Below, piece after piece: positions 6,029 to 34,210 of a DNA stretch of 34,210 nucleotides; the first letter of the stretch is position 1, and every line of letters begins with the position of its first letter. The notes under the pieces are model-generated. The model worked only from the letters and a program-made list of their open reading frames with translations. It was not told where the DNA came from and made no database searches. Where the stretch lies: the IMG/VR virus record IMGVR_UViG_3300034122_000877, positions 1 through 34,210 of that record. The stretch is one strand, 5' to 3'. The stretch is from a virus. A program made the translations under genes and the position numbers.

Positions 6029-8125
6029 TCAGTTCGCCTTCAATTCTGTAATTTGGGCATCTAAAAGGTTGAAATGGCTCTTGCCTTCATCGGAAATGTA
6101 GAGAATAAATGACCGATCATTGCCCTTGTTCTCAATCCAACCGCCTGCCATCAAGTCGCTGATTCGATCACCAATGGCATCTTTTGACCCCGTAATGCCA
6201 TCCTGCACCATACGCCGTGAAGCGCCAGGATGATTGTGAATGAACTCAGCCACCTCAAGTTGTTTCTTGTATTCCTTGTTGCTCTCCATCTCATCTTCAA
6301 GCATTGGCACTGTGATGGCATATTGCATTTGCGCCTTGGTTGAATCAATGATGAAAATTGCAGCCTCTTGGGTGCGGTCAGACTTGCGCCACATCCCCGC
6401 AATCTTGCGCACAAACCCTGGGCGGTCTTTGGTCACACGCATTGTGAGAGTGCCAACCCTGCCCGGTGCTAACGCCTCAAGAGGTTCAACAAGATATGCA
6501 GCACCGTCAATGGTGGCCAACTTCGCCTGCCCGCCGATGGCAAACCGCCCCCGTGTTTCGGCGTTCTTTGTGATGTGATCAATAAGCACAACGGCAGCGC
6601 CTGAGGCTGAGGCAACCGTTCGTGGAAACAATCGCATCCATCGTGTGATGGCATCATTATCTTTGGACTCGCCACCCCACATCGTCAGGGATTCAGTCAC
6701 GCCGTCAATGACCACAAGGGTTGCAGATTCAGGTTGCAAGATCGCCTGCCAATATGGGTCATCGGCATCGCGTGCGCCGTCAGGTCTGATGTAGGTGAAA
6801 TAGTGCAACAGGTTAGCTCGGCTCACACCCAAGGCTTTGAGTCTGTTCACGATGTCAATTGCATCGCTTTCAAAATCAATATAGATGACTTTTTTATCAT
6901 TCTTAAGGCACTCAGCCGTTGCAATTTGTGCAATCCAAGATTTGCCTGATTCTGATTCGCCATAAATGGAATGAACACGCCCTGTGTAGATAAGGCCGTT
7001 GCCATCTGATCGCTTAAGGATTGTCGCAATCGGTGCTTGAAATAAGCCATCAAAGTAATCGGCAAGGGGTACAGGCTTCCAACTTGACTCATCCTCGCTT
7101 AAAATGGCCTCTGAAGGCTTATCAATGGCACTCAGGGGTGCATTTGATACTTCAAGAACTCCCAATTCTCTGCTCTGTCCGTATCCTTGAGCCTTGAGAT
7201 CGGCTGCCGCGTTCTTAAAGTTACCGTGATGATGCAAGTGTGCGTACGTTGCAAACTTTGAATATGATGTTTCACTGTCAAAGATTGTGCTTGTGCTGAA
7301 AACGTATAATTTATCGTTTCCGTTAAAGTTTGTTGTTGCACTTATCCCCTCATTCTTGCCTGGCCTACGCCACACAGTTGCCTCGCCTTTGTTGTACACC
7401 TTTGACCATCCAAGGGGTAGCAATATCTCATCCCACGTTGTTTTTGCTGCATAATCATCGCCGGCGCTTGTGACACCATCAACCTTGTGGCTGACCTCTT
7501 GGGCAATACTCTCGGCCTTTGGCATTTGATCAAATAGGGCAAAGAGTGAGTGCAGTGCGGTGTGTTCTTGTTTGGTCAGCGTAGGAATCTGCTCAATCGA
7601 GCCACGCAAGAGTTGCCAAGCCCCACCTGATGGGTGAGTTGACCCACCTGATGGTGCGCAGATAGAAAAGCCACCTTCACCGCGAGTTTCGGCCAAGACT
7701 TCAACGCCACCATTCTCACCCGGTCTGCGAGCTAACTTCAGGTTGCCTGCAACGGGTGAGTCAAGGCGGTAAAGCCAATGAAGCCCACCTGATGGGGTCA
7801 TCTCCACATATCCTGAGTTGATTTTCTCCCATAGATCGGACAAGCCTGAAGATTCGGCAATCTCAGCAATCTGCAGGTGCATTTTGTCGGCAACTGCTCG
7901 CCCTTCAAGTTCAAGCATCTCAAGATTGCCTGAAATCTTGCCTGTGATCACACCTAAGCCCTCAACACCATTTTTGAACCACATCAAGAGTTCATCAGTG
8001 ACGGGCGTTTCACGTTGAAATCTCTCCCAAGCAAATGCAGGTCGCTTGGAACCATCTTTGGCGGTGGGAACTGCCACGATGCCTTGCGTTGCAAAGCGTA
8101 GGGCGATTGGTAACAAATTACTCAT
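6029..8125 (-). CDS. Bifunctional primase-polymerase / RecA-like helicase
   Basis: This 698-residue replication protein starts at ATG 8125, overlapping the methyltransferase stop by 8 bases; a start at 8155 would add ten residues inside that gene. An N-terminal Prim-Pol (AEP) domain shows GLGVITG, NLEMLELEG at about 67-75 in the place of the usual acidic motif, GGLHW at about 113-117 and a W-R-P-G-K segment. The helicase domain has Walker A GESESGKS (about 389-396), Walker B ATLVVIDG, and VVLIDHITKN. A winged helix lies near the C-terminus (NHPGASRRMVQDGITGSKDA). It is the likely replisome core for primer synthesis and unwinding. In the acidic motif Glu replaces the textbook Asp pair, as in many actinophage homologues. 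Confidence 0.93.
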   Translation of the reverse strand: MSNLLPIALRFATQGIVAVPTAKDGSKRPAFAWERFQRETPVTDELLMWFKNGVEGLGVITGKISGNLEMLELEGRAVADKMHLQIAEIAESSGLSDLWEKINSGYVEMTPSGGLHWLYRLDSPVAGNLKLARRPGENGGVEVLAETRGEGGFSICAPSGGSTHPSGGAWQLLRGSIEQIPTLTKQEHTALHSLFALFDQMPKAESIAQEVSHKVDGVTSAGDDYAAKTTWDEILLPLGWSKVYNKGEATVWRRPGKNEGISATTNFNGNDKLYVFSTSTIFDSETSYSKFATYAHLHHHGNFKNAAADLKAQGYGQSRELGVLEVSNAPLSAIDKPSEAILSEDESSWKPVPLADYFDGLFQAPIATILKRSDGNGLIYTGRVHSIYGESESGKSWIAQIATAECLKNDKKVIYIDFESDAIDIVNRLKALGVSRANLLHYFTYIRPDGARDADDPYWQAILQPESATLVVIDGVTESLTMWGGESKDNDAITRWMRLFPRTVASASGAAVVLIDHITKNAETRGRFAIGGQAKLATIDGAAYLVEPLEALAPGRVGTLTMRVTKDRPGFVRKIAGMWRKSDRTQEAAIFIIDSTKAQMQYAITVPMLEDEMESNKEYKKQLEVAEFIHNHPGASRRMVQDGITGSKDAIGDRISDLMAGGWIENKGNDRSFILYISDEGKSHFNLLDAQITELKAN

Positions 8126-8873
8126 TGCCCACCATTCTTGAAATAATCCACTCAACCACCGGCACTGCTACTGCATTGCCCATTTGCTTGTACCTGTTCG
8201 AATCGGCTTGGCCATCTGTCCAATTGTCAGGGAACCCCTGCAGGCGCTCACACTCAATTGGTGTTAGACGGCGCACCACTGAAGAATCAATAATGGCTCC
8301 TGTGTGATCGGGGCCACCAGAACCTTTTCTCAGGGTTTGATTCATTTCTGAAAGCGAATGATTATAAATATCAACGGCAAGTGGTGAATTATTGTTTGTC
8401 ATTCCCGCCCTCAATGTTCCCATTCCCTCAGAATAATCAGCAAAGCCTGATGGTGAAAAAGCAACTGCCATTCCTGCGCCCCCTGTTCTAAGTGTTGGTG
8501 AATTTGTTTCACTTGGTTGTATATCTAAACCTTGAGTGTGGCTAAAAATCATTGGCACATTCCCCCCGCCCGTTCCATATCGTGAAATTACTGTTGGCAT
8601 TATGCCATCCTCATAAACTCGCACATCGTTGACACGGGTGCCATCAATAATTAAAACACTTGGCATTGAAGTAATACCGCCCCCCGCTTTGATCGTTTGA
8701 AAAGCATTTTCTGAAATTTCAGCATTGTAAATATCAACGCCAACTACTAGAACAGTTGCAAATGCCTCACCATTATTATCCATTGCGTTCAATGTTGGTA
8801 CTACCCCCCCCCGCTTCCAAGACTCATAATCATTAACATTTTGCGCCCGTTTAGCTTTCGTGAAGAACAACAT
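8118..8873 (-). CDS. C5-cytosine methyltransferase, C-terminal part (TRD plus motifs IX-X)
   Basis: This 251-residue segment begins MLFFTKAKRAQNVNDYESW, a common opening of target-recognition repeats in phage Dcm-like enzymes. Several repeats of the T-L-R/N type follow (VVPTLNAMD, TLRTGG, GMGTLRAGM, NQTLRKG). Motif IX is VVRRLTPIECERLQGFPDNW and motif X is YKQMGNAVAVPVVEW. It lacks motifs I-VIII, which are in the gene immediately upstream in another frame. The two pieces could act as a split heterodimer like M.AquI, or the gene could be broken. A run of nine G residues (8804-8812) lies within it. Partial readthrough from the upstream frame is not needed, since an ATG is present. Confidence 0.8.
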   Translation of the reverse strand: MLFFTKAKRAQNVNDYESWKRGGVVPTLNAMDNNGEAFATVLVVGVDIYNAEISENAFQTIKAGGGITSMPSVLIIDGTRVNDVRVYEDGIMPTVISRYGTGGGNVPMIFSHTQGLDIQPSETNSPTLRTGGAGMAVAFSPSGFADYSEGMGTLRAGMTNNNSPLAVDIYNHSLSEMNQTLRKGSGGPDHTGAIIDSSVVRRLTPIECERLQGFPDNWTDGQADSNRYKQMGNAVAVPVVEWIISRMVGNE

Positions 8874-8878
8874 TATCT

Positions 8879-9550
8879 TCAGGCACCTTGGGTGTATTTT
8901 GCGAATCCTGATTGGCCGTATGCTGCAGTGCTTGCTCCAGTTGCGGTGGCAGTGTCTTTTCTCTGCGGTTTGCTCGCCTCAAGATACCTTGCGCGGCTCT
9001 GGCCGATAGCGAGTATTTCTTCAGGTGATCGCCCTGAGTTTCCAAGACATCCGACAATGAACACTCTACGCCTTCGTTGGGGTACTCCGAAGTGTTGAGC
9101 ATCAAGTACCCGCCACGCGATGCGATACCCGCGCTCGACCAACGCTTCAACCACAACGGCCATATCTTTTCCCCCATTTGAGGAAAGTAAACCAGGCACG
9201 TTTTCAAGGATAAAGTTTTGCGCTCTTGTTTCGTCAAGCAATCGGCAGATTTCCCAAAATAATCCTGATCGAGAACCACCCAATCCTGCTCGCTTTCCAG
9301 CCACTGAAAGGTCTTGGCAGGGAAATCCGCCTGTAATGATTCCGTTGCTTGGCTCAAATCCGCATTGAATAAGTTGTTCACCTGTAACCCCCGTAATATC
9401 GCCAAAGATAGTTGAATCAGGGAAGTGCCGGCGTAGCACATCCTGGGCTTTTTTATCAATCTCAACAGATGCCACTACTTTGACACCTTGGCGTTCAAGA
9501 GCTAAATCAAAACCCCCAACGCCTGCAAACAAACTGACTGCAGTTTTCAC
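8879..9550 (-). CDS. C5-cytosine methyltransferase, catalytic N-terminal part
   Basis: This 223-residue segment transfers methyl groups from S-adenosylmethionine to cytosine C5. Motif I is SLFAGVGGFDLALE (about 6-19), motif IV GGFPCQDLSVAGKRAG with the nucleophilic Cys, motif VI FILENVPGL, and motif VIII QRRRRVFIVG. It ends YGQSGFAKYTQGA at a TGA just where the target-recognition domain should begin. A normal single-chain enzyme would continue into the next segment. The start is a GTG overlapping the FmdB-like gene's stop (GTGA). It probably protects phage DNA or was acquired with mom as an anti-restriction set. Confidence 0.9.
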   Translation of the reverse strand: MKTAVSLFAGVGGFDLALERQGVKVVASVEIDKKAQDVLRRHFPDSTIFGDITGVTGEQLIQCGFEPSNGIITGGFPCQDLSVAGKRAGLGGSRSGLFWEICRLLDETRAQNFILENVPGLLSSNGGKDMAVVVEALVERGYRIAWRVLDAQHFGVPQRRRRVFIVGCLGNSGRSPEEILAIGQSRARYLEASKPQRKDTATATGASTAAYGQSGFAKYTQGA

Positions 9551-9717
9551 GGCTTACTCCCCCAACCTGTTCCCTTAAAAATGGCACCAACCGGCGTGTA
9601 AATCCTCACCAACGGCTTTTCACAATCTTCGCAATACTGTAAATCTTTATTCTCACACGAAAGACTCAGTTCAAAGGTATTACTGCACTGCTCACATTTG
9701 AAATCATAAAGTGGCAT
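9547..9717 (-). CDS. FmdB-like zinc-ribbon protein, 56 residues
   Basis: An ATG at 9717 opens MPLYDFKCEQCSNTFELSLS. The first CxxC is at residues 8 and 11, the second at 29 and 32 (YCEDCEKP), then VRIYTPVGAIFKGTGWG. This is the FmdB zinc-ribbon pattern in length and order, including the characteristic FKGTG end. The family is often called regulatory, but its biochemical role is not settled. It overlaps the Mom-like gene by 14 bases and the methyltransferase by four, so all three are probably translated together. In phage Mu a small zinc-finger protein (Com) activates mom translation; an analogous role here is a guess from proximity. Confidence 0.85.
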   Translation of the reverse strand: MPLYDFKCEQCSNTFELSLSCENKDLQYCEDCEKPLVRIYTPVGAIFKGTGWGSKP

Positions 9718-10378
9718 TTTTCATCCCTTCAGCCTTTGGGTACTTCTCTTGAGGCCAAATACATTTGACGGTTTTATCCATCAAAAACAGGTATCGGTGC
9801 TTGCGTGATCGCGGCACCCACTTGCCCTCAAAACCTTTTGATTTGCCACGCGATAACTTTCTGCCATCGGCAAAAAAGAAATCATTTTTCTGTGGTGTCA
9901 ATCCGTGATATGTAAAGTTTGCCGCCTGATAGACCGCGCCAATGTGCCTTGATGAGTCAGCGTAACTGATCACCGCTTTGATATTGCTTTTCTTTAACTG
10001 CCTCAATGATTGGGCAATCAAGTATGAACCGTGATTCTTTCCATTCAGCGATGGGTTCAAAACCAAACGGCTCATCTCTAAAAATTCAGGATAATTCCCA
10101 CGGGGCAAGCCAAATGCCGATGTCGCAGAATTAGGCACTGAAAGAGGTGAATACACAACTGCCCCTTTCAGCTCGTTTTCAATAAAAAGTCCAAAACAGT
10201 ATTGCCCAATGAAACGCTTTTTGCCTAAGTAGTGAAAGGTACTCACCAAATCGTATGCTTCACGGTATTTGATACTTTGCACATATTGGAGCGATGAAGT
10301 CGGAATTGAACCGCTAACCGATAACTGGAAAGTCATCTGTGTTGCCATTACACCATCATCGCAAATCTGTTTACTCAT
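9704..10378 (-). CDS. Mom-like DNA modification protein (GNAT-fold)
   Basis: From ATG 10378 (MSKQICDDGVMATQ; GGGGCGG just upstream) this gives 224 residues, close to Mu Mom (231). Family landmarks in order are FHYLGKK, FGLFIENELKGAVVY, PEFLEMSRLVLNP, SYLIAQSLRQLKK, AVISYADSS, IGAVYQAANFTYHGL, and a basic C-terminal region (PRSRKHRYLF). Mom changes adenines in phage DNA to a methylcarbamoyl form that blocks host restriction. The same frame extends upstream to 10468, but that stretch overlaps a hairpin and a tRNA-like element, so I take the shorter start. It is the first gene of the modification cassette. Confidence 0.82.
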   Translation of the reverse strand: MSKQICDDGVMATQMTFQLSVSGSIPTSSLQYVQSIKYREAYDLVSTFHYLGKKRFIGQYCFGLFIENELKGAVVYSPLSVPNSATSAFGLPRGNYPEFLEMSRLVLNPSLNGKNHGSYLIAQSLRQLKKSNIKAVISYADSSRHIGAVYQAANFTYHGLTPQKNDFFFADGRKLSRGKSKGFEGKWVPRSRKHRYLFLMDKTVKCIWPQEKYPKAEGMKNATL

Positions 10379-10402
10379 TACCGCCCCGTTCAATCGTCTT
10401 GC

Positions 10403-10463
10403 GTGAGATGTTTGGACTTGAACCAAAAAGTGTTCCCCAACACTTGCAAACCTGCCATCTCGC
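10403..10463 (-). other. tRNA-like or degenerate tRNA element in the mom leader
   Basis: The minus strand carries a canonical T-arm: stem TTTGG, loop TTCAAGT, stem CCAAA (10427-10411). It is followed by CATCTCAC, which pairs with GCGAGATG (10463-10456) with one mismatch, like an acceptor stem. Between them is an arm AAGTG, eight-base loop TTGGGGAA, CACTT, resembling a proline GGG anticodon arm with an extra base. The D-arm region is far too short and no CCA is encoded. The total is only about 61 bases. It is either a decayed tRNA, a tRNA mimic, or chance. Confidence 0.3.
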
Positions 10464-10488
10464 ATCACCTAGAAAGGATTAGGTGATG
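10463..10488 (-). promoter_or_regulatory. Nine-bp hairpin upstream of mom
   Basis: CATCACCTA (10488-10480 on the minus strand), eight-base loop, TAGGTGATG (10471-10463) form a perfect 9-bp stem. It lies 85 bases before the mom start and directly abuts the tRNA-like element. No T run follows, so it is more likely a processing or leader structure than a terminator. Confidence 0.5.
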
Positions 10489-10976: not shown

Positions 10977-11125
10977 TTGACATCCCCCGTTTCTGTTTGT
11001 GTTGGTGTTTGGTTTTCTTTTTGTTCTTTGTTGAAATCTGAGATTGTTTTAAGACCGAGAAGGTGCAAGGTACCATCTCGCATTGTTTCCTTGCACGCGC
11101 ATTGGCAAGAATCCTGCTCACACAT
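10973..11125 (-). CDS. 50-residue cysteine-rich protein
   Basis: An ATG at 11125 lies inside the last codons of the RecB-like gene (8-base overlap), and its TGA overlaps the SSB-like ATG (ATGA). The N-terminus MCEQDSCQCACKE packs four Cys at positions 2, 7, 9 and 11, suggesting a metal site. The C-terminal half is Gln/Thr/Glu/Lys-rich and probably disordered. I know of no family. Tight coupling at both ends is the main support. Confidence 0.6.
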   Translation of the reverse strand: MCEQDSCQCACKETMRDGTLHLLGLKTISDFNKEQKENQTPTQTETGDVK

Positions 11126-11858
11126 CGGTATCACCGTTGCAGGCTTTGCTCAAATCTTTACTGAAAGGCTGATAGTAAGGGCAGTACATACACAAGCGAG
11201 ATGGGGCTTTGGGTATGACTTGCCACATTGCGGGTGAGTTCTCAACATCAACTGTTGAAAGTAGCTCGTACACTGAATCCAATCGTGCCAGGGCATCCAA
11301 TGCAATCTGTTCATCGTAATCGTGCAACTCAACATACATATCATCAATCTGCCCACCTGTAGGCAAAAAGATCAGGCCGACCTTGTTCACGGTTGCACCC
11401 TCTTGTGCCTTGCCGTAACCGTAAAGCATCACCTGAATAATCTGTTGGCGCGAAGCACCCTCACTGCGCTTGATCTTTACTGAGGCGGGTGAGGTAGTTT
11501 TCCAATCGAGAACAAGCCCCAAATCTTTGTCAAAGAGGTCAATCGTTCCCGATAGGTTGGCTCTGATCTTCACCTTACTTTCAACCTCATACCTTTCAGG
11601 CATCTTGCTGAAAATAGCCTCAAGGTGTGCGTGTATGGCAGTACCAACTTGGGCAGCCCAATTGCCTGAACTGCCTTCGTTGACCTGCTCCCAATCAAGT
11701 AATTTGTACGCGAGCCGGCGGGTACATTCCTGACCCACTTCAGATGGGCCGATGTACACCTGTTGAGATCGCGGTGCGAACCTGCCCGCATCGGTGATGA
11801 TGCGGGCAAGTTCGACTGCAAGCTCTTGATTAGGCGTTGAAAGTGGTGAAAAGGTCAT
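11118..11858 (-). CDS. RecB/Cas4-like PD-(D/E)XK exonuclease with Fe-S cysteines
   Basis: These 246 residues match the Cas4/RecB nuclease layout. Cys45 lies in SEVGQECTRRLAYKLL, His76 in VGTAIHAHLE, Asp107 in GTIDLFD, D-x-K in LVLDWKTTS (about 118-120), and Gln142 in QQIIQVMLYGYG. Three further Cys follow near the end (CMYC at 223 and 226, Cys240). The four Cys are the usual ligands of a 4Fe-4S cluster. It probably resects DNA ends in replication or recombination. Its position beside a YqaJ-tail-like protein and an SSB-like protein supports a phage recombination module. It is not part of a CRISPR system; no array or other cas gene is present. Confidence 0.9.
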   Translation of the reverse strand: MTFSPLSTPNQELAVELARIITDAGRFAPRSQQVYIGPSEVGQECTRRLAYKLLDWEQVNEGSSGNWAAQVGTAIHAHLEAIFSKMPERYEVESKVKIRANLSGTIDLFDKDLGLVLDWKTTSPASVKIKRSEGASRQQIIQVMLYGYGKAQEGATVNKVGLIFLPTGGQIDDMYVELHDYDEQIALDALARLDSVYELLSTVDVENSPAMWQVIPKAPSRLCMYCPYYQPFSKDLSKACNGDTDV

Positions 11859-12578: not shown

Positions 12579-13022
12579 TCAGCCCAAGCCTTTTGATGAG
12601 TTTTTTTTCTGTTGGTGTAATTGGTTTGCTCCCTGTTCGGTTGCTGCCAACTTTTTCAAGATTCGTACAACATAGCTCTTGGATGTATAAAGTTGGGCAG
12701 CAATTTCGTGAGCAGATAGACCTTTGGCGTGCAATTGCGTGATTACCAATGAGATACCTGTGAAGGTATGCACCTCGGTTTTCTGCAATTCCTTGTATCT
12801 TTCATCGGGTGTTTTACCACCCCAAATGCCGTAATCAATCTGCTTTTTCAGTGCATAAGCCAAGCACTCCTTTTCGTGAATACAACTGTGACATATCGCC
12901 TTCAGTTGGTGCAGTCTTTCTGCTTCAAGTTTGCGACCATCGGGGAAAAAGAAATCTTTATCCTCGACCTCGGCGCATCTTGCTTGGTCAAATCGTGGCA
13001 GGTCAACAAAGAAAGTGATCAT
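12579..13022 (-). CDS. whiB-like: WhiB-family protein with extra C-terminal helix-turn-helix
   Basis: The 147 residues from ATG 13022 overlap the nuclease stop (ATGA). Cys16 (ARCAEV), Cys44, Cys47 (ICHSCIH) and Cys53 (KECLAY) match the WhiB 4Fe-4S pattern, followed by the signature GIWGGKTPDER (about 65-75). Most phage WhiB proteins end soon after. This one continues with a helix-turn-helix-like segment (LSAHEIAAQLYTSKSYVVR, about 102-120) and a basic tail. WhiB proteins are confined to actinobacteria and their phages and bind sigma factor region 4. This is the best single host marker, and a likely transcription regulator of phage or host promoters. Confidence 0.92.
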   Translation of the reverse strand: MITFFVDLPRFDQARCAEVEDKDFFFPDGRKLEAERLHQLKAICHSCIHEKECLAYALKKQIDYGIWGGKTPDERYKELQKTEVHTFTGISLVITQLHAKGLSAHEIAAQLYTSKSYVVRILKKLAATEQGANQLHQQKKNSSKGLG

Positions 13023-13369
13023 TGTTTTTCTGCCAACCATTGAGTCAGGTCTTGGATAACCCAAGCCTTTTCAATCCCCGCACTTCTCCGTTTGAGGATT
13101 ATGTAATGCAATGGCACCTGATCAAGTCCACGCGCCTTTGCATAGTTTTCTGCCTCAACCTCGGCTTCACGCCAAAATTCAGGCAAACTTATTGTCTTGC
13201 GATTCTTGAGTTCAAGAATGTATTGCTTGCCGGCAATAACTGCGACAAGATCGCCCTCATCGTTCTTGCCTGCTTTTACCAAACGCTCACATAAGGCACC
13301 GGCACCGCGTAACCAACGCATCACATCGGTTTCAAATTGTGCGCCTTTGCGCCCGTTTGGGTTAGCCAT
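13019..13369 (-). CDS. Holliday junction resolvase-like PD-(D/E)XK nuclease
   Basis: This 116-residue protein opens NGRKGAQFETDVMRWLRGAG with the conserved Glu at about 13. It continues ERLVKAGKNDEGDL (Asp at about 40) and YILELKNRKTISLPEFWREA (E-x-K at about 53-55), then a helix VEAENYAKARG. This is the Hjc/resolvase-like pattern seen in actinophages. It probably resolves branched recombination intermediates. ATGA overlaps link it to WhiB downstream and to the 117-residue gene upstream. A second resolvase-type enzyme, endonuclease VII, is encoded near the terminase. Confidence 0.85.
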   Translation of the reverse strand: MANPNGRKGAQFETDVMRWLRGAGALCERLVKAGKNDEGDLVAVIAGKQYILELKNRKTISLPEFWREAEVEAENYAKARGLDQVPLHYIILKRRSAGIEKAWVIQDLTQWLAEKQ

Positions 13370-13722
13370 TATTTCACAACCCTCAATTTTGCCACTCTTG
13401 TTGCCATTTCATCGGCATTAAAGATTCGGCGCTTTTTGATTGAAGAAATAATGTCTTGGCAAAGATTGAAAGCCTCATCTTCAGTCATTGAGGCAATCAA
13501 GATTGCAGCATCAGGCATTGCATCGCGTGCGCGATCTAGCGCTTCAACTGCTCCTTCATCGCGCAAATTACGGCGATTGGCAGCCTGCAACTCATCAAGG
13601 TCGCGCAATTCAAAATACCCAACAACATCGCTTGCAAGATCAACAACTGCATCTTGCTCTTCAAGGTACAAAATGACCTTGCCCTGATCGGTTGTATGTA
13701 CTGAAAACAACGGGTCACGCAT
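13369..13722 (-). CDS. Acidic helical protein, 117 residues, unknown
   Basis: I chose ATG 13722 (MRDPLFSVHTTDQGKVILYL), which overlaps the small membrane gene's stop by 8 bases. The protein has a short beta-like start and then a long acidic helical region (DLDELQAANRRNLRDEGAVE, ALDRARDAMPDAAILI) and a basic end (KKRRIFNADEMATRVAKL). No catalytic motif or known family is apparent. An extension to 13815 would run over the membrane-protein gene in another frame and is unlikely. Confidence 0.65.
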   Translation of the reverse strand: MRDPLFSVHTTDQGKVILYLEEQDAVVDLASDVVGYFELRDLDELQAANRRNLRDEGAVEALDRARDAMPDAAILIASMTEDEAFNLCQDIISSIKKRRIFNADEMATRVAKLRVVK

Positions 13723-13892: not shown

Positions 13893-14441
13893 TCAGCGTG
13901 TCTGTAATTCCACCTGAAAGGGTGCGCTTGTATTGACATCATATTTTGCAGATACCTCAAGGGCTTTGATCATCTCGCCATCAGCCCATTCTTGCTTGGC
14001 AAGGTTGGGCAGTTGCCCCGCCAAAAAACCCAAGGCGTAGGCAGAGCCTGAGCCGATTCCATAAAGGCCATCTGAACTTTGACTGATGCTCAAGTCATCG
14101 CCAATTTCAAAAAGGTTGGCATCAAAGGCGAGAAGGTAGGAATATGAAATGCCCTCTTTGGTGTAATCGAATCCCTGCGCCTTGAACGCTGCAACCATAC
14201 TTGGAATGATTTTCTTGCCCATAAATCGCACGGGGTCGGTGCCATCGTAAGCCGGTGGTGTCCAATTGTAGGTCAGCACATCCCCTGGCCGACAATCCCC
14301 ACTGACTGCCAAAAGATACTTTTTCAGCTTTACGATCTTGGGCGTGCTTGGACTCAACACCCGCTTGTCACCATCGGTGATTTGGGAATCTGCGGCAAGC
14401 CAAACAAAGCCCTCGCCCTGATACCCGATCACTGTGGTCAT
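13893..14441 (-). CDS. Proteasome/HslV-like Ntn-hydrolase
   Basis: This 182-residue protein has the 20S-beta/HslV fold signature. After removal of Met1 the chain would start TTVIGYQGEG, with Thr1 as nucleophile. Asp falls exactly at position 17 (VWLAADSQITDG) and a Lys at 34 (SPSTPKIVKL) near the canonical Lys33. Next come YLLAVSGDCRPGD (the S-G-D turn), YSYLLAFDANLFEI and YGIGSGSAYALGFLAG, the G-S-G-S loop that completes the active site. The C-terminus VSAKYDVNTSAPFQV matches the family's last conserved strand. It is the first gene of the leftward operon and so probably expressed early. Host-protein degradation or an interplay with the actinobacterial proteasome is inferred. No ATPase partner is visible. 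Confidence 0.85.
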   Translation of the reverse strand: MTTVIGYQGEGFVWLAADSQITDGDKRVLSPSTPKIVKLKKYLLAVSGDCRPGDVLTYNWTPPAYDGTDPVRFMGKKIIPSMVAAFKAQGFDYTKEGISYSYLLAFDANLFEIGDDLSISQSSDGLYGIGSGSAYALGFLAGQLPNLAKQEWADGEMIKALEVSAKYDVNTSAPFQVELQTR

Positions 14442-14447
14442 ACCCCC

Positions 14448-14453
14448 ATTTTA
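14448..14453 (-). promoter_or_regulatory. Candidate -10 (TAAAAT) of the leftward operon, possibly leaderless
   Basis: TAAAAT ends seven bases before the ATG of the proteasome-like gene (14441). A start site 6-8 bases downstream would coincide with the ATG, giving a leaderless message, which is common in actinobacteria. No good -35 is seen at 16-18 bp. The DnaA-box pair lies directly upstream. A GGGGGT run touches the ATG too closely to serve as a normal ribosome-binding site. Confidence 0.42.
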
Positions 14454-14476: not shown

Positions 14477-14497
14477 TTATCCACAGGTTGTGGATAA
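14477..14497. other. Two perfect inverted DnaA boxes; candidate origin or operator
   Basis: TTATCCACA (14477-14485), spacer GGT, then TGTGGATAA (14489-14497). Both arms match the consensus DnaA box TTATNCACA exactly and face each other. They lie in the divergent intergenic region between the two transcription units. This could recruit host DnaA for replication initiation or transcription control. An unrelated dimeric repressor recognising the same palindrome is the main alternative. Confidence 0.6.
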
Positions 14498-14540: not shown

Positions 14541-14563
14541 CTGTATGGTCGGTGACTGTATGG
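14541..14563. repeat. Direct repeat CTGTATGG, two copies 15 bp apart
   Basis: CTGTATGG occurs at 14541-14548 and again at 14556-14563, just upstream of the candidate rightward promoter. Two eight-base direct repeats in the -35 region are a plausible regulator site, although this short a repeat can arise by chance. Confidence 0.35.
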
Positions 14564-14568
14564 ACAGG

Positions 14569-14577
14569 TGCTAAGAT
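14569..14577 (+). promoter_or_regulatory. Candidate extended -10 promoter for the rightward operon
   Basis: TG, one base, TAAGAT (14572-14577) resembles an extended -10, which can work without a good -35; none is visible. Transcription would begin at about 14584, exactly at the start of the inverted repeat 14584-14608 and 40 bases before the first ATG. Confidence 0.35.
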
Positions 14578-14583
14578 TTGGGT

Positions 14584-14608
14584 ATTGGAAAACGAACGGG
14601 TTTCCAAT
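14584..14608 (+). promoter_or_regulatory. Eight-bp inverted repeat in the rightward leader
   Basis: ATTGGAAA (14584-14591), nine bases, TTTCCAAT (14601-14608) form a perfect inverted repeat between the candidate promoter and the first rightward gene. It could be an operator covering the transcription start, or a 5' mRNA hairpin. The operon encodes at least one ribbon-helix-helix protein that could bind it. Confidence 0.5.
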
Positions 14609-14623
14609 AGAACGGATTACAAA

Positions 14624-14797
14624 ATGAACAAGTTGGATAATTTGTTAGCAATTTTGGTTTCACGTCACGCAGCAAATCTTGGTTTATCTTTGGAATTGCG
14701 TGACCAAATGGTGCGCGAAATGGCAATTCTTGCAGAGCGTGGTTACAACTCACGCGCTGAACTCATTTTACTTACAAAGAAAGCGATTGGTGCCTAA
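14624..14797 (+). CDS. 57-residue helical protein, possibly ribbon-helix-helix-like
   Basis: From ATG 14624 (MNKLDNLLAILVSRHAANLG), a GTG start at 14552 is possible but would begin inside the operator region. The segment LRDQMVREMAILAERGYNSR, followed by AELILLTKKA, looks like the two helices of an Arc/CopG ribbon-helix-helix domain, but the usual N-terminal strand is not obvious. It ends IGA, and the TAA overlaps the next ATG (TAATG). As the first gene of the rightward operon, it could autoregulate; that is inference. Confidence 0.6.
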   Translation: MNKLDNLLAILVSRHAANLGLSLELRDQMVREMAILAERGYNSRAELILLTKKAIGA

Positions 14798-14979
14798 TGA
14801 CTACAGTTCAAGATTTCAAAATTGGAATGATGGTTGAAGTTTCACACATTGGCGGAACTGAGATTGGTCATATTGATCAAATCAATTTCGAATCAGGAAA
14901 AGTTGTTCTTTATTTCCTTGAGGGTTTGAATCTTAATTTCTGCACATTCAACATTTCACAGATTAAGGCGGTTGCATAA
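14797..14979 (+). CDS. Small beta-rich protein, 60 residues, unknown
   Basis: It starts MTTVQDFKIGMMVEVSHIGG and contains strand-turn-strand patterns (GHIDQINFESGKVVLYFLEG) that suggest a small SH3-like barrel. There is no known family that I can name. It is coupled at both ends by TAATG. The end IKAVA with AAGGCGG supplies the ribosome-binding site for the next gene. AT-rich codons, like its neighbours, differ from the leftward genes. Confidence 0.68.
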   Translation: MTTVQDFKIGMMVEVSHIGGTEIGHIDQINFESGKVVLYFLEGLNLNFCTFNISQIKAVA

Positions 14980-15218
14980 TGACTACACAAAAACTTTGGA
15001 TTTCTGACAATGGGGATGTTCTTTGCGAAGATCACTCAGGTATGTATTTGAAATGCGCAATTCAAGCAAAGCCAAAAGCAATTAAGCACAAAACCCCATT
15101 GGGTGATTGGTGCTTGTATTACACACATTTACTTGGTGGCGAGAATCTAGTTTGTGAAACTTGTGTTCCTTGGGATTCACCAAATCATCCATCTAACAAA
15201 ATGAAGGCAGGTGCATAA
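14979..15218 (+). CDS. Small Cys/Trp-rich protein, 79 residues, unknown
   Basis: It starts MTTQKLWISDNGDVLCEDHS and includes YLKCAIQAK, DWCLYYTHLLGG and LVCETCVPWDS. Five Cys, including one CxxC, suggest a zinc site. Small proteins of this sort are common in actinophage early regions, with no assigned role. It is coupled by TAATG on both sides and ends MKAGA. Confidence 0.68.
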   Translation: MTTQKLWISDNGDVLCEDHSGMYLKCAIQAKPKAIKHKTPLGDWCLYYTHLLGGENLVCETCVPWDSPNHPSNKMKAGA

Positions 15219-15349
15219 TGTTCACAATTGAGTTGACACAAGAACAAATTGAATGGCTCAAATATGCGGTTGCCAATTCATCTCAACAAATGTGGGATTA
15301 CACATTGGTAAATTCTATCAATGAGGCGTTAGAGAAGGCGGTTGCCTAA
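15218..15349 (+). CDS. 43-residue helical protein, unknown
   Basis: An ATG at 15218, in a TAATG overlap, opens MFTIELTQEQIEWLKYAVAN followed by SSQQMWDYTLVNSINEALEK and AVA. It is predicted to be helical. No family is known. The end EKAVA carries AAGGCGG, which would act as the ribosome-binding site for the following overlapping gene. Confidence 0.65.
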   Translation: MFTIELTQEQIEWLKYAVANSSQQMWDYTLVNSINEALEKAVA

Positions 15350-15456
15350 TGTCCACCACCGAAAACACCTGCCTCAACTGTGGGGCGCGATTTGATTCAG
15401 TAGCAAAAATGCACGAATGTTTTGATTGTTTTCTCATTAGAGTAGGGGAGAAGTAA
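15349..15456 (+). CDS. 35-residue zinc-ribbon peptide
   Basis: MSTTENTCLNCGARFDSVAK is followed by MHECFDCFLIRVGEK. Two CxxC pairs at residues 8/11 and 24/27 make a compact treble-clef-like zinc site. It starts within a TAATG overlap. Such micro zinc fingers are frequent in phages and usually bind nucleic acid or a host protein; no specific role is visible here. Confidence 0.65.
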   Translation: MSTTENTCLNCGARFDSVAKMHECFDCFLIRVGEK

Positions 15457-15458
15457 AA

Positions 15459-15635
15459 ATGGGTGCAATGAAGAATTTGATGATTGATGCAAGTGACCAA
15501 TTGTTTATCATCAGCCGTGACTTGGAAGAGGCATCGCTGACTGCCGACCTTGATGAGATGAAAAAGGCTCTGCGCCGTGCAATCGTCAACTCAGCTTTGG
15601 CAATCGCCTTTATTGAAGAATTGGGGCAGATATGA
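15459..15635 (+). CDS. 58-residue helical protein, unknown
   Basis: It starts MGAMKNLMIDASDQLFIISR, then DLEEASLTADLDEMKKALRR and AIVNSALAIAFIEELGQI. This is two or three amphipathic helices with no recognised family. It begins two bases after the zinc-ribbon gene's stop, with GGGGAG upstream. The TGA overlaps the next ATG (ATGA). Confidence 0.65.
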   Translation: MGAMKNLMIDASDQLFIISRDLEEASLTADLDEMKKALRRAIVNSALAIAFIEELGQI

Positions 15636-15793
15636 TCACCAAGCGTGGCAAGCGTGTGCGTGCAGTTGCAATCCTCATTGGCGCAATTCTTATATGGCAG
15701 ATTGTTGCCAACTTGTGGTGGGTCGGTAACTCACCCAATGCAGATTTTCTTGGTTGGTGTTGGGGTTCAATGACTGAATGTGAGGTGCTTTGA
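15632..15793 (+). CDS. 53-residue single-pass membrane protein
   Basis: The basic N-terminus MITKRGKRVR is followed by one hydrophobic helix (AVAILIGAILIWQIVANLWW, about residues 11-30) and a short outside tail with two Cys (GWCWGSMTEC). The positive-inside rule predicts N-terminus in, C-terminus out. Function unknown. Its ATG overlaps the previous stop. Membrane placement in an early operon may point to host-envelope modification or superinfection exclusion, but nothing in the sequence proves it. Confidence 0.65.
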   Translation: MITKRGKRVRAVAILIGAILIWQIVANLWWVGNSPNADFLGWCWGSMTECEVL

Positions 15794-15986: not shown

Positions 15987-16265
15987 TTATTCAGTGGCGA
16001 TCTCGCCGGAAATACTTGCGTATGCGGCAAGATCAACAAAACTGTCAAGGTGGTCAGGTGATTCAATCAATCGTGCAACCTTAACCAACCCCATACAAAT
16101 TGCAACCTGCGCGGGTGTGATCTCTTGTTCAAGAAAGATTGACCACAAGCTCGCAATGCGTGCGTGATTTGTCAGTGGCTTGCCGTAATTCTTGTTGCGA
16201 TCACCGTGGGTCAGGCGCTTGGCTTCATCTAAAATCTCACCGCGTTCCATCATCCCCCATTTCAT
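15987..16265 (-). CDS. DUF6378-like phage protein
   Basis: 92 residues containing the family pattern GDRNKNYGKPLTNHARIASL, W-x-x-x-L, EITPAQVAICMGLVKVARLI and DSFVDLAAYASISGEIA. Proteins of this domain are widespread in phages as small helical proteins of unknown biochemical role. ATG codons at 16265, 16253 and 16250 are possible starts, all within the glycosyltransferase 3' end. The one at 16250 sits best behind GGGGG. It is the last gene before the terminator. Confidence 0.82.
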   Translation of the reverse strand: MKWGMMERGEILDEAKRLTHGDRNKNYGKPLTNHARIASLWSIFLEQEITPAQVAICMGLVKVARLIESPDHLDSFVDLAAYASISGEIATE

Positions 16266-19936: not shown

Positions 19937-21967
19937 TTATCCGAAGATTTGATTTGCTAGAATGTTTTGATCTGAGCTAAGAAGTTCATCGCTCTCTGCT
20001 TTTGTGTAAACATTGGCAACGTTAAAAGTTCCATATGCCACAACAAGCAAAGTATCATTAAGAACTGCACCGCTTGCAAGAACAACGCTAGTGCCATTGG
20101 TTGCAGTGTAATCGCTAGTGCGAACAAGCAAAACACCATTGAGATAAACCTGTTCGGCTCCAACCGTATATGCAAGTGTGAGCGAATTGAGATCGGTGCC
20201 TGAAAATGTAGTTTGACCTGCGCTTGCAAGATAAGAATATGTAATTGCAGCACTAGCACCGGCAGAACCACTTGCACCTGTGGCACCTGTTGAACCCGTT
20301 GCACCTACGGCACCACTTGCACCTGTTGGGCCTGTTGCCCCTTCAGGTCCTGTGGCACCAACTGCGCCATTTGCACCTTGCGGTCCTGTAGCACCCGTTG
20401 CACCAACATCGCCATTTGTACCTGCAGGGCCTGTGGCACCTGTAGCGCCAACGGCACCATTGGCACCTGTTGCGCCCACGGCACCTGTTGCCCCGATTGG
20501 CCCTGTTGCTCCAACATCACCTGTGACACCTTGCGGGCCTGTGGCACCAACGGGGCCTGTGGCACCAATTGGACCTGTAACGCCAACATCTCCCTGTGGG
20601 CCAACAACTCCCTGTGGACCCGTTGCACCTGTAGCTCCTACTGCACCACTTGCACCTGTTGCGCCTGTGGCACCATCAATGCCTGCAGGTCCTGTTGAAC
20701 CCGTGGCACCGATTGGGCCTGTGACTCCTGTTGCGCCAACATCGCCTGCAACCCCTTGTGGCCCTGTCGGTCCTGTTGCACCAACAACACCTTGAGGCCC
20801 TGTCGGTCCAGGCACTGTTGAATCAGCACCTGATGCGCCTGTGGCACCTATCGGACCCGTTGGCCCTGTAACGCCTGTGGCTCCGATTGGGCCTGTGGCA
20901 CCTGCAGGGCCTGTGGCTCCTGTGGCACCTGTAAGACCAGTTGCGATTGTAATGACTGCGAGAAGTTGAAAGTTTGAAAAGTTGGTTGTACCCGTGCCAC
21001 CTGATGAATCAATAACAACAGGCAATTCGACATACCCTGTTTGCAAGGTTGGTGCGCCAGTAATTAAGAATTTTTGGAAGTTGTTGTTGACATCTCGATC
21101 TTGAATAATAATAAAATCATTTGCTTTAAGTAATGCAAGCAAGAAATCAATGTCATCGCCGTTATCGTCAATGTGATCTATATTGATGCGGGTTGAATTG
21201 ATTTGCGTTGCATTACCCCAACGAATATCACCTGAACCTGGCTTGCCTGTTGTGCTTGAAGTATCTGCTGCATATTCAAAGATTGATGCAGACCCACCAT
21301 TGGCACCTGCAGGCCCGCTTGCACCTGTTGCACCCGTTGGACCTTGATCACCCGTTGCACCAATTGGACCCGTTGCACCTGTGGCACCGATTGGACCTGT
21401 AACACCTGTTGGTCCTGGCACAAAAGAATCCGCACCCGTTGGACCTGTGGCACCAATTGGACCTGTTGAACCTGTGGCACCAACAACGCCTTGAGGCCCT
21501 GTCGCGCCTGTGGCTCCGACATCGCCCTGAATACCTGTGGCACCTGTCAAGCCCGTTGGACCGACTTCGCCTGTGGCACCTGTTGCGCCAATTGGACCTG
21601 TTGAACCTGATGCGCCGATTGGTCCTGTTACACCAATTTCACCTTGGATTCCCTGAATACCTTGTTGGCCGGTTGCTCCGATTGGACCTGTTGGGCCTGT
21701 AACTCCGATTGGACCTGTTACACCAACGGGGCCTGTTGCACCTGTTGGACCGCTTACGCCTTGAACACCTGTTGCACCAATTGGACCCGTGACACCCGTT
21801 TGACCCGTTGCACCTGTAGCTCCAACAACACCTTGGGGGCCTGTTGGCCCTGTTGCACCTGCAGGGCCTTGTGGACCTTGTTCATTGCTGACAATTACTT
21901 CAGCGCTTGATGCAATTTCAACAATAACATCTGTGGTGCTTGATGATACATAAACAATTGAACTCAT
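19937..21967 (-). CDS. Collagen-like tail fibre
   Basis: 676 residues. A short N-terminal domain ([20 protein letters not shown]) is followed by a G-x-y collagen-like block (repeats such as [10 protein letters not shown], about 30-225). A folded insert of about 115 residues follows ([20 protein letters not shown] through [14 protein letters not shown]), then a second collagen block (about 345-590). The C-terminal trimerisation-type domain reads [14 protein letters not shown] and [20 protein letters not shown] and ends [12 protein letters not shown]. The whole should form a long trimeric fibre. The DNA is repetitive, so repeat number may vary or be mis-assembled. Confidence 0.88.
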
Positions 21968-32770: not shown

Positions 32771-33724
32771 TTATTTTGTGTTGTTGATGATTGCTTGCGC
32801 TAGGCGCAGGGAAATTGATCGAGTTGCTGCAACTGCTACAGGCTCAACTGGCACCTCTTCAACTTCAGGCTCTTCAATTTCAATTTCCTCTTCAGACTCT
32901 CCACCTGTGAGCATTGCCATCATTTCAACGGCCTTCATAATGTAATCGTGGCCTTCGCTTAAATCTTCAAAAATTGTGTTGAGAACTGCCAAAGATTCGC
33001 CTGTGATCTCACGGCCCTCTTTGATTGCCTCAATTGCGGTGCGCAAAGCCTCACGCGCCTCAACTGTTGTTGTTGGGTAAGCGGGATAAGTAACCACTGA
33101 CACATCTCCATCTGCTAGTGAAACCTCTGTAAGTGTTCGCGTTGTACGATCTTCATTCCATTTTTGACGAATTACGCGAAAGGCAAAACTCATTTGGTCA
33201 ACATCTCCGCGCTCAACCAACTTGTAAAGGTCGCGCCCCTCTGAGGTATCAGCGATTGTTGCATCCATATAAAGCCCGCGATCATCTTCAGTCAACATCA
33301 AGGTGCCATTCTTGGTACGAGCTAGTGGCAACCCTTCGTGATTGATGAGCAAGCGCACATCAGGTGTTTCGCTTAATGTCTTGCGAAATGCGCCCGGTGC
33401 AATTCTTTCAATAAATGGAAGCGGCACACTGTCATCATTGAACACTGCAGCATATCCGCGCAATCTCATTGTGCCATCTTCGGCTTGGCGTGCCTCAACA
33501 TCTCGAACGGTAAAGGTACGGCGTTCAATCTTTTTCATTTTGCTCCTTGAGTTAACTTCCCCACCCGGTTCCATATCTTCAGAAATTGAAACTGCAACCA
33601 TCTGATCTATTGCATCTTGTTTGTTATCGTGGCAAGTAATTGTTGTGTATGAATCATCGGCCTCTTGTTTTACTGTTGCCCATCCTGCGCAATCAGATTG
33701 TTTGTCGCTGACAAAATAAGGCAT
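32771..33724 (-). CDS. HK97-type prohead protease with N-terminal extension
   Basis: 317 residues. The U35-type protease core begins near residue 62 at MKKIERRTFTVRDVEARQAE and includes MRLRGYAAVFNDDSVPLPFI, VRLLINHEGLPLARTKNGTL with the catalytic His, and DVDQMSFAFRVI with the Ser. An acidic C-terminal tail follows (EEEIEIEEPEVEEVPVEPVA). The first 61 residues (YFVSDKQSDCAGWATVKQEA, TTITCHDNKQDAIDQMVAVS) form a separate Cys/His domain seen in some actinophage head proteins. An internal ATG at MKKIER could give a shorter protease. It matures the capsid shell. The ATG overlaps the portal stop. Confidence 0.9.
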   Translation of the reverse strand: MPYFVSDKQSDCAGWATVKQEADDSYTTITCHDNKQDAIDQMVAVSISEDMEPGGEVNSRSKMKKIERRTFTVRDVEARQAEDGTMRLRGYAAVFNDDSVPLPFIERIAPGAFRKTLSETPDVRLLINHEGLPLARTKNGTLMLTEDDRGLYMDATIADTSEGRDLYKLVERGDVDQMSFAFRVIRQKWNEDRTTRTLTEVSLADGDVSVVTYPAYPTTTVEAREALRTAIEAIKEGREITGESLAVLNTIFEDLSEGHDYIMKAVEMMAMLTGGESEEEIEIEEPEVEEVPVEPVAVAATRSISLRLAQAIINNTK

Positions 33725-34210
33725 TATTCAACCTCATATGCTGCTGAAGGGTCTGTTGGGTCAATTGTTGAAATCTGTTGCAACTGACTTGATGGCAAAC
33801 CTGTGTGCTTCATATCAGGCAAGCCTACTGCCTCAGTGACTGCTGCAGGGTCAAAGCCAACTTGAATCAATGCGGCAGCAATTTCTGCACGCAATTTGAG
33901 GCCAATATCTTTTGCATCTGTGGCATCAATGTTTTGCAATGGCACGCGGTATTGATCGCCACTTTCGATTGGTGCCATATCCTCATATGCGTGAACATCA
34001 TTGAGTGAAAGGAATCCTTCACGCAATCCCTTGGTGTAGGCATCGTAGCGTTCAATGGTTGTGCCGCGAAGCAAGGCATCTAAGTTAAAACGAATGAATC
34101 CATCAGCTTCGGGCAACAATGTTGAGAGTGATTGCTCAATTCTCTCTAAGATAGGGCGCAGTGAGTGCTGCACAAATGAAAGGTTTTGGGCTTCAACTGA
34201 TGCAAATGAC
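33724..34210 (-). CDS. Portal protein, C-terminal part (continues from base 1)
   Basis: This is the remainder of the portal gene. The non-redundant part adds 119 residues after codon 345. Bases 34084-34210 duplicate the window start and encode the same residues (QHSLRPILERIEQSLSTLLP region). An internal GTG at 34173 could be mistaken for a start, but the frame is open upstream through the whole N-terminal half. The C-terminus is a typical flexible portal tail rich in Pro, Ser and Asp. The TAA overlaps the ATG of the prohead protease by one base (TAATG), which indicates translational coupling. Confidence 0.93.
   Translation of the reverse strand, partial: SFASVEAQNLSFVQHSLRPILERIEQSLSTLLPEADGFIRFNLDALLRGTTIERYDAYTKGLREGFLSLNDVHAYEDMAPIESGDQYRVPLQNIDATDAKDIGLKLRAEIAAALIQVGFDPAAVTEAVGLPDMKHTGLPSSQLQQISTIDPTDPSAAYEVE
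34084..34210. repeat. Terminal redundancy, copy 2
   Basis: This is an exact copy of bases 1-127. Removing one copy joins the two halves of the portal gene in frame, with codon 345 (AAC, Asn) falling at 34086-34084. Confidence 0.95.

Follow-up and report, generated by a model that had tools for sequence, protein, structure and literature searches.

A predicted T1-family peptidase gene at the head of an early-type gene block in probable lake actinophages

The peptidase gene and its surroundings

The window, meaning the whole stretch of DNA that was analysed, is the 34,210 nt IMG/VR virus record IMGVR_UViG_3300034122_000877. Its main features are listed below; counts of loci refer to the 32 loci with long flanks, window included.

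1-127, no strand: terminal direct repeat of 127 bp, identical to 34084-34210
11118-11858, minus strand: Cas4-like/PHROG 1674 exonuclease, same block as the peptidase (32/32 loci)
12579-13064, minus strand: WhiB-family regulator, an actinobacterial marker, same block (32/32 loci)
13019-13369, minus strand: RusA-like Holliday junction resolvase (PHROG 244), same block (32/32 loci)
13369-13722, minus strand: small conserved protein without known family, directly downstream of the peptidase (26/32 loci)
13893-14441, minus strand: T1-family (proteasome/HslV/BPH-like) Ntn peptidase, ATG start, 182 aa, predicted mature N-terminus Thr2
14448-14453, minus strand: -10-like box TAAAAT of a predicted leaderless promoter, ending 6 nt before the ATG
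14477-14497, no strand: inverted pair of exact DnaA-box consensus matches, TTATCCACA-ACC-TGTGGATAA, upstream of the promoter in the divergent promoter region
32771-33724, minus strand: S78 prohead protease

The 127 bp overlap of the ends indicates that the assembly is circular and complete, with a length of 34,083 bp. The WhiB gene and the nearest terminase, that of Pontimonas phage phiPsal1 (48%), indicate a host that is likely actinobacterial.

The peptidase heads a leftward block with WhiB, RusA and the Cas4-like exonuclease downstream in 32 of 32 loci. When loci were instead fetched via RusA or the exonuclease, the peptidase was present in 71 of the 74 with enough upstream sequence, and the remaining three also lack the exonuclease; some contigs are common to these 74 loci and the first peptidase search. 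The first place in a leftward operon, from which the preliminary description had suggested early expression, was borne out: small divergent genes lie upstream, and the block is of early type with its own conserved promoter. For the small protein at 13369-13722 no family was found, and its model is of low confidence (pLDDT 59).

Recognised ATPases in the phage genome are the terminase and a Prim-Pol/RecA-like protein. The scanned proteins of the complete genome included no HslU, Clp or Lon unfoldase, so the earlier remark that the phage has no ATPase partner holds for HslU/Clp/Lon-like unfoldases. A PF00227 search of the record for a second proteasome-family gene (an alpha partner) matched only the peptidase ORF, and defence-system models gave no match.

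Several other features of the window were recorded. The short divergent plus-strand genes at 14552-15793, opposite the peptidase operon, matched no known families where scanned, and two of them (15459 and 15632) are conserved in 19-21 of the 32 loci. Further upstream, 15987-16265 (minus strand) encodes a DUF6378 protein, conserved in 26/32 loci, which PHROGs labels phosphofructokinase. A C5-cytosine methyltransferase at 8118-9550 (minus strand) is carried as two ORFs, N-terminal (8879-9550) and C-terminal (8118-8873); it is split in many relatives, often with an overlap of ~20-30 nt, and fused in L034 and L049, the alternatives being a two-subunit enzyme or a frameshift. A Mom-like DNA modification protein, here in a small actinophage, is encoded at 9704-10468 (minus strand; 5/32 loci), and a tRNA call at 10287-10362 was discarded as it falls inside this gene and lacks a proper anticodon. 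The tail region includes a 676 aa collagen-like G-x-y repeat protein (19937-21967, minus strand).

Of 91 distinct regions upstream of the peptidase, 89 have a TANNNT box whose end lies 5-7 nt (mostly 6 or 7) from the start codon; shuffled upstreams gave a mean of 4.5 and a maximum of 12. One of the 91 has a Shine-Dalgarno-like motif. Among the 46 genes of the window, only the peptidase and one other gene have the box. Scans for consensus promoters and terminators did not exceed chance level; the signal is the position of the -10 box, kept across relatives. The peptidase transcript most likely starts at the start codon and is leaderless, leaderless mRNAs being a common arrangement in Actinobacteria. 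With a leaderless start at Met-Thr, removal of Met, which is to be expected ahead of Thr, would expose Thr1 with no need of a propeptide, and E. coli HslV is alike in this. Apart from the window, only its two nearest relatives have the DnaA-box pair, which is for that reason probably not part of the system.

Family membership, predicted fold and constraint

The 182-residue product of the ORF begins MTTVIGYQGEGFVWLAADSQITDGDKRVLSPSTPKIVKLKKYLLAVSGDCRPGD. It scores 31.6 bits against Pfam Proteasome PF00227 (cut-off 22.4) and falls in PHROG 1040, 'peptidase HslV family', over residues 1-178 (E=2.5e-22). These scores, together with the invariant catalytic residues described below, argue that the T1-family match is not due to chance. 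HslV equivalog models (NCBIfam) gave 20.9-22.5 bits against cut-offs of 137-157.75 and the archaeal 20S beta equivalog model 22.7 bits against a cut-off of 224; with both so far below cut-off, the protein is placed in the T1 family but outside HslV proper and the 20S beta subunits.

The ORF and the residue set read from it in the preliminary description were confirmed. With Thr2 counted as residue 1, Asp lies at 17, Lys at 34, S-G-D at 46-48 and G-S-G-S at 129-132. By alignment Lys34 corresponds to the canonical Lys33 of E. coli HslV, the shift arising because the preceding loop is one residue longer in this branch. T1, D17 and K33 are kept across the aligned phage copies of PHROG 1040, and Thr1, Asp17, the Lys33 equivalent, Gly47, Ser129 and Asp166 are invariant in 93 of 93 distinct relatives; the final Ser of the GSGS loop alternates with Gly. 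Numbered from Met1, the positions that never vary in the 93 full-length proteins include T2, T3, D18, Q20, K35, G48, R51, G53, D54, S131, D168, N170 and T171, and W60 and P63 are also invariant among distinct relatives. The conserved leaderless promoter and the further invariant residues R51, G53, D54, W60, P63, D168, N170 and T171 go beyond what had been described earlier.

A single-chain AlphaFold model, built from 17 related phage proteins, reached pLDDT 87.6 and pTM 0.87. Its first match in a Foldseek search of the PDB was BPH of Thiobacillus (TM 0.78), followed by HslV and 20S beta subunits, and against viral models it matched other phage T1 homologues at TM 0.8-0.9. The Ntn alpha-beta-beta-alpha fold, the absence of which would have spoken against the original proposal, is present in the model (Foldseek probability 1.0 to BPH, HslV and 20S beta), and the family profile aligns to HslV and BPH starting at the first Thr. 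Both helix pairs are present, with helices at 52-59 and 70-88, of which H1 is short. The weakest part of the model is the loop at 21-30, near the active site (pLDDT 55). A conserved insertion of 6-11 residues (W60-x-P62-P63) lies in the H1-H2 region of this branch and is absent from HslV; it may alter assembly. Together with the invariant R51, G53 and D54 beside the oxyanion Gly, it suggests a specialised pocket and a changed outer face at the place that HslU or an alpha ring would occupy in other members.

In IMG/VR, 155 relatives were confirmed by scanning with the window protein and at least 582 (counted as stretches) by a profile scan. Median pairwise dN/dS was 0.10 (637 pairs from 93 distinct full-length relatives). 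This value and the invariant catalytic residues indicate a constrained enzyme rather than a remnant, and the peptidase looks like an active enzyme maintained by selection. The earlier proposal of a phage-encoded, active proteasome/HslV-type Ntn peptidase is thus upheld by PF00227, PHROG 1040, the model and the catalytic residues to the extent that the product is apparently active, a catalytically competent T1-family enzyme as far as its sequence can tell.

Phage and bacterial homologues

Two pattern scans, which distant relatives may escape, covered 84,980 bacterial and archaeal genomes and confirmed no relative there; among the collected phage records, no copy exceeded 33% identity. The branch appears virus-restricted in these data and looks like an actinophage-restricted branch of a known kind. 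In the tree it consists of nine freshwater rows (support 88/96) and lies outside a clade (97/94) of proteobacterial and Firmicutes phage copies and rhizobial/Streptomyces/Bacillus plasmid copies. All actinophage rows may form one group, at weak support (68/91) and with long branches. One plasmid copy (L137, 3001-3546), on a symbiotic plasmid of Sinorhizobium, has nifQ on one side and an iron-sulfur/nifS region on the other.

All tested phage copies belong to PHROG 1040, and those of Epseptimavirus SuperGirl, Geobacillus E3, Arthrobacter Hum25 and Planktophila phage F5 share it with the window protein over the whole length. The window peptidase differs from them as a separate actinophage branch heading a WhiB/RusA/Cas4 block, where several copies elsewhere have an RNR/thymidylate/PhoH cluster. 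Thymidylate synthase, DHFR, RNR or PhoH genes adjoin the copies of Geobacillus E3, Pantoea AAS21, SuperGirl, Vibrio 1.101, Pseudoalteromonas J2-1, Aeromonas 2L372D and Pumpernickel. The DSL-LC01 copy adjoins WhiB, and that of Gordonia Mollymur is near RusA and WhiB. T1 homologues are annotated in T5-like and Planktophila phages; the region of T5 itself that was inspected has no such annotation. In Planktophila phage F5 (OX376641; described in PMC10202952) the copy, at 21199-21735 of the reverse complement, directly follows the portal gene in the structural module, so an early position is not universal across the wider family, and the homologue possibly has a different role there. No prohead protease was recognised by eye in that phage.

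Fuchs, Alva and Lupas (2021) described 22 proteasome homologues, including PPH and AAH, and saw neither AAA+ partners nor functional context for them (PMC8665760). PPH, the proteasome homologue of phages and their hosts, has about 140 aa without helix H2 and was termed the 'first true viral member' (PMC8665760). Both PPH and the window peptidase are phage-encoded group I T1 homologues of Caudoviricetes with no AAA+ partner gene, but the window branch has ~176-188 residues and two helices where PPH has ~140 residues and lacks H2. AAH, which occurs in phages, was found in no phage of Actinobacteria (PMC8665760). It resembles the window peptidase as a compact group I homologue with phage occurrence and a link to Actinobacteria; the window peptidase falls outside the 97/94 clade, whose rhizobial and Streptomyces plasmid copies are likely proxies for AAH and not AAH references.

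BPH (5OVS) is a tetradecameric double ring without partner unfoldase (PMC5777263). It is the best structural match and likewise lacks an unfoldase, a likeness and not a membership: identity is 19%, the BPH gene is bacterial, and its product has a long acidic pore loop. HslV (ClpQ) shares the Met-Thr-Thr start, D17/K33 and a compact core without H5, and differs by the distant equivalog cut-off, the conserved H1-H2 insertion of the window branch and the lack of an HslU gene found in the phage. Phage papers annotate HslV without HslU (PMC7823757; see also PMC8953757). In the literature searched there was no function and no experimental work for any phage proteasome homologue, though hundreds of phages carry one. 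Publications on phage T1 homologues date back to 2021 (PMC8665760) and such genes are annotated, so the finding is less novel than it first seemed, and concerns a new branch of a known kind.

Possible roles of the peptidase

The best explanation, and a somewhat probable one, is an unfoldase-independent, BPH-like self-compartmentalised peptidase expressed early, in which we infer both the ring and the substrate. Host methionine aminopeptidase would expose Thr1, and the subunits would assemble into a closed (double) ring like that of BPH or HslV, the active state of such peptidases. The peptidase would be made early, alongside replication/recombination genes, would act on unfolded, flexible or peptide substrates without a dedicated unfoldase, and would aid host takeover by eliminating certain proteins of the host (or early ones of the phage). 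A ring of its own, also raised in the preliminary description, is plausible. A bolder version, put forward only tentatively, is a stand-alone viral mini-proteasome: a phage-specific T1 branch that forms its own unfoldase-free chamber early and destroys specific host (defence/regulatory) proteins, as a core function in abundant freshwater actinophages.

An HslV-like subunit might instead borrow a host AAA+ unfoldase (HslU, ClpX/ClpC or Mpa/ARC) and so degrade folded substrates. The compact HslV-like core, the match of HslV profiles to both halves of the protein and the want of a phage-encoded unfoldase, so that a host one would be needed, are in keeping with this. Actinobacteria, however, are generally not known to carry HslU. 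The HslV equivalog scores are also far too low, and the H1-H2 insertion would lie on the helix pair facing away from the ring-ring contact, as deduced from the text of PMC8665760; borrowing of this kind is rather unlikely.

The specialised pocket suggested by the family-specific R51, G53 and D54 by the oxyanion Gly and by W60/P63 would also suit an Ntn enzyme of high specificity that processes or ligates a single target of host or phage origin, perhaps as a monomer. Connectase, a monomeric T1 ligase (PMC8665760), is a precedent. The model, however, has both helix pairs and lacks the connectase-type two-helix insertion at S3/S4, and we regard such an enzyme as distinctly unlikely.

The preliminary description had also raised replacement or poisoning of a host subunit, that is, a decoy or replacement subunit entering the host 20S proteasome and re-routing or poisoning it. 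Many Actinobacteria have 20S proteasomes, and WhiB makes an actinobacterial host likely, but the proposal gained no positive support. Identity to beta subunits is ~20%, the strictly conserved catalytic set would be needless in a pure poison, and phages that infect E. coli, Vibrio and Aeromonas carry homologues; E. coli has HslVU and is not known to have a 20S proteasome. Given relatives whose hosts lack the 20S particle and the strictly kept catalytic residues, a role inside the host 20S is very improbable.

A capsid maturation protease or virion protein, which the position of the Planktophila phage F5 homologue behind the portal gene might suggest, is more improbable still: in 32/32 loci the gene stands first in a DNA-metabolism block that is separate from the head genes, and the capsid protease role was rejected because the window has its own S78 prohead protease. 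A non-functional remnant or chance ORF is refuted by the invariant catalytic residues and dN/dS of ~0.10.

An early, self-compartmentalised peptidase remains the preferred reading. In this branch the gene is core, strictly conserved and part of an early block, and its lake actinophages form a large group, with at least 582 IMG/VR stretches. The branch bears on the gap left by PMC8665760, where no phage of Actinobacteria carrying such a homologue (AAH) was found. Cultured relatives are at hand in Planktophila phages E7/F5 and in phage SuperGirl of E. coli K-12, whose homologue is gene bas29_0065. These cultured relatives and the core, conserved nature of the gene make the question of what phage proteasome homologues digest directly testable.
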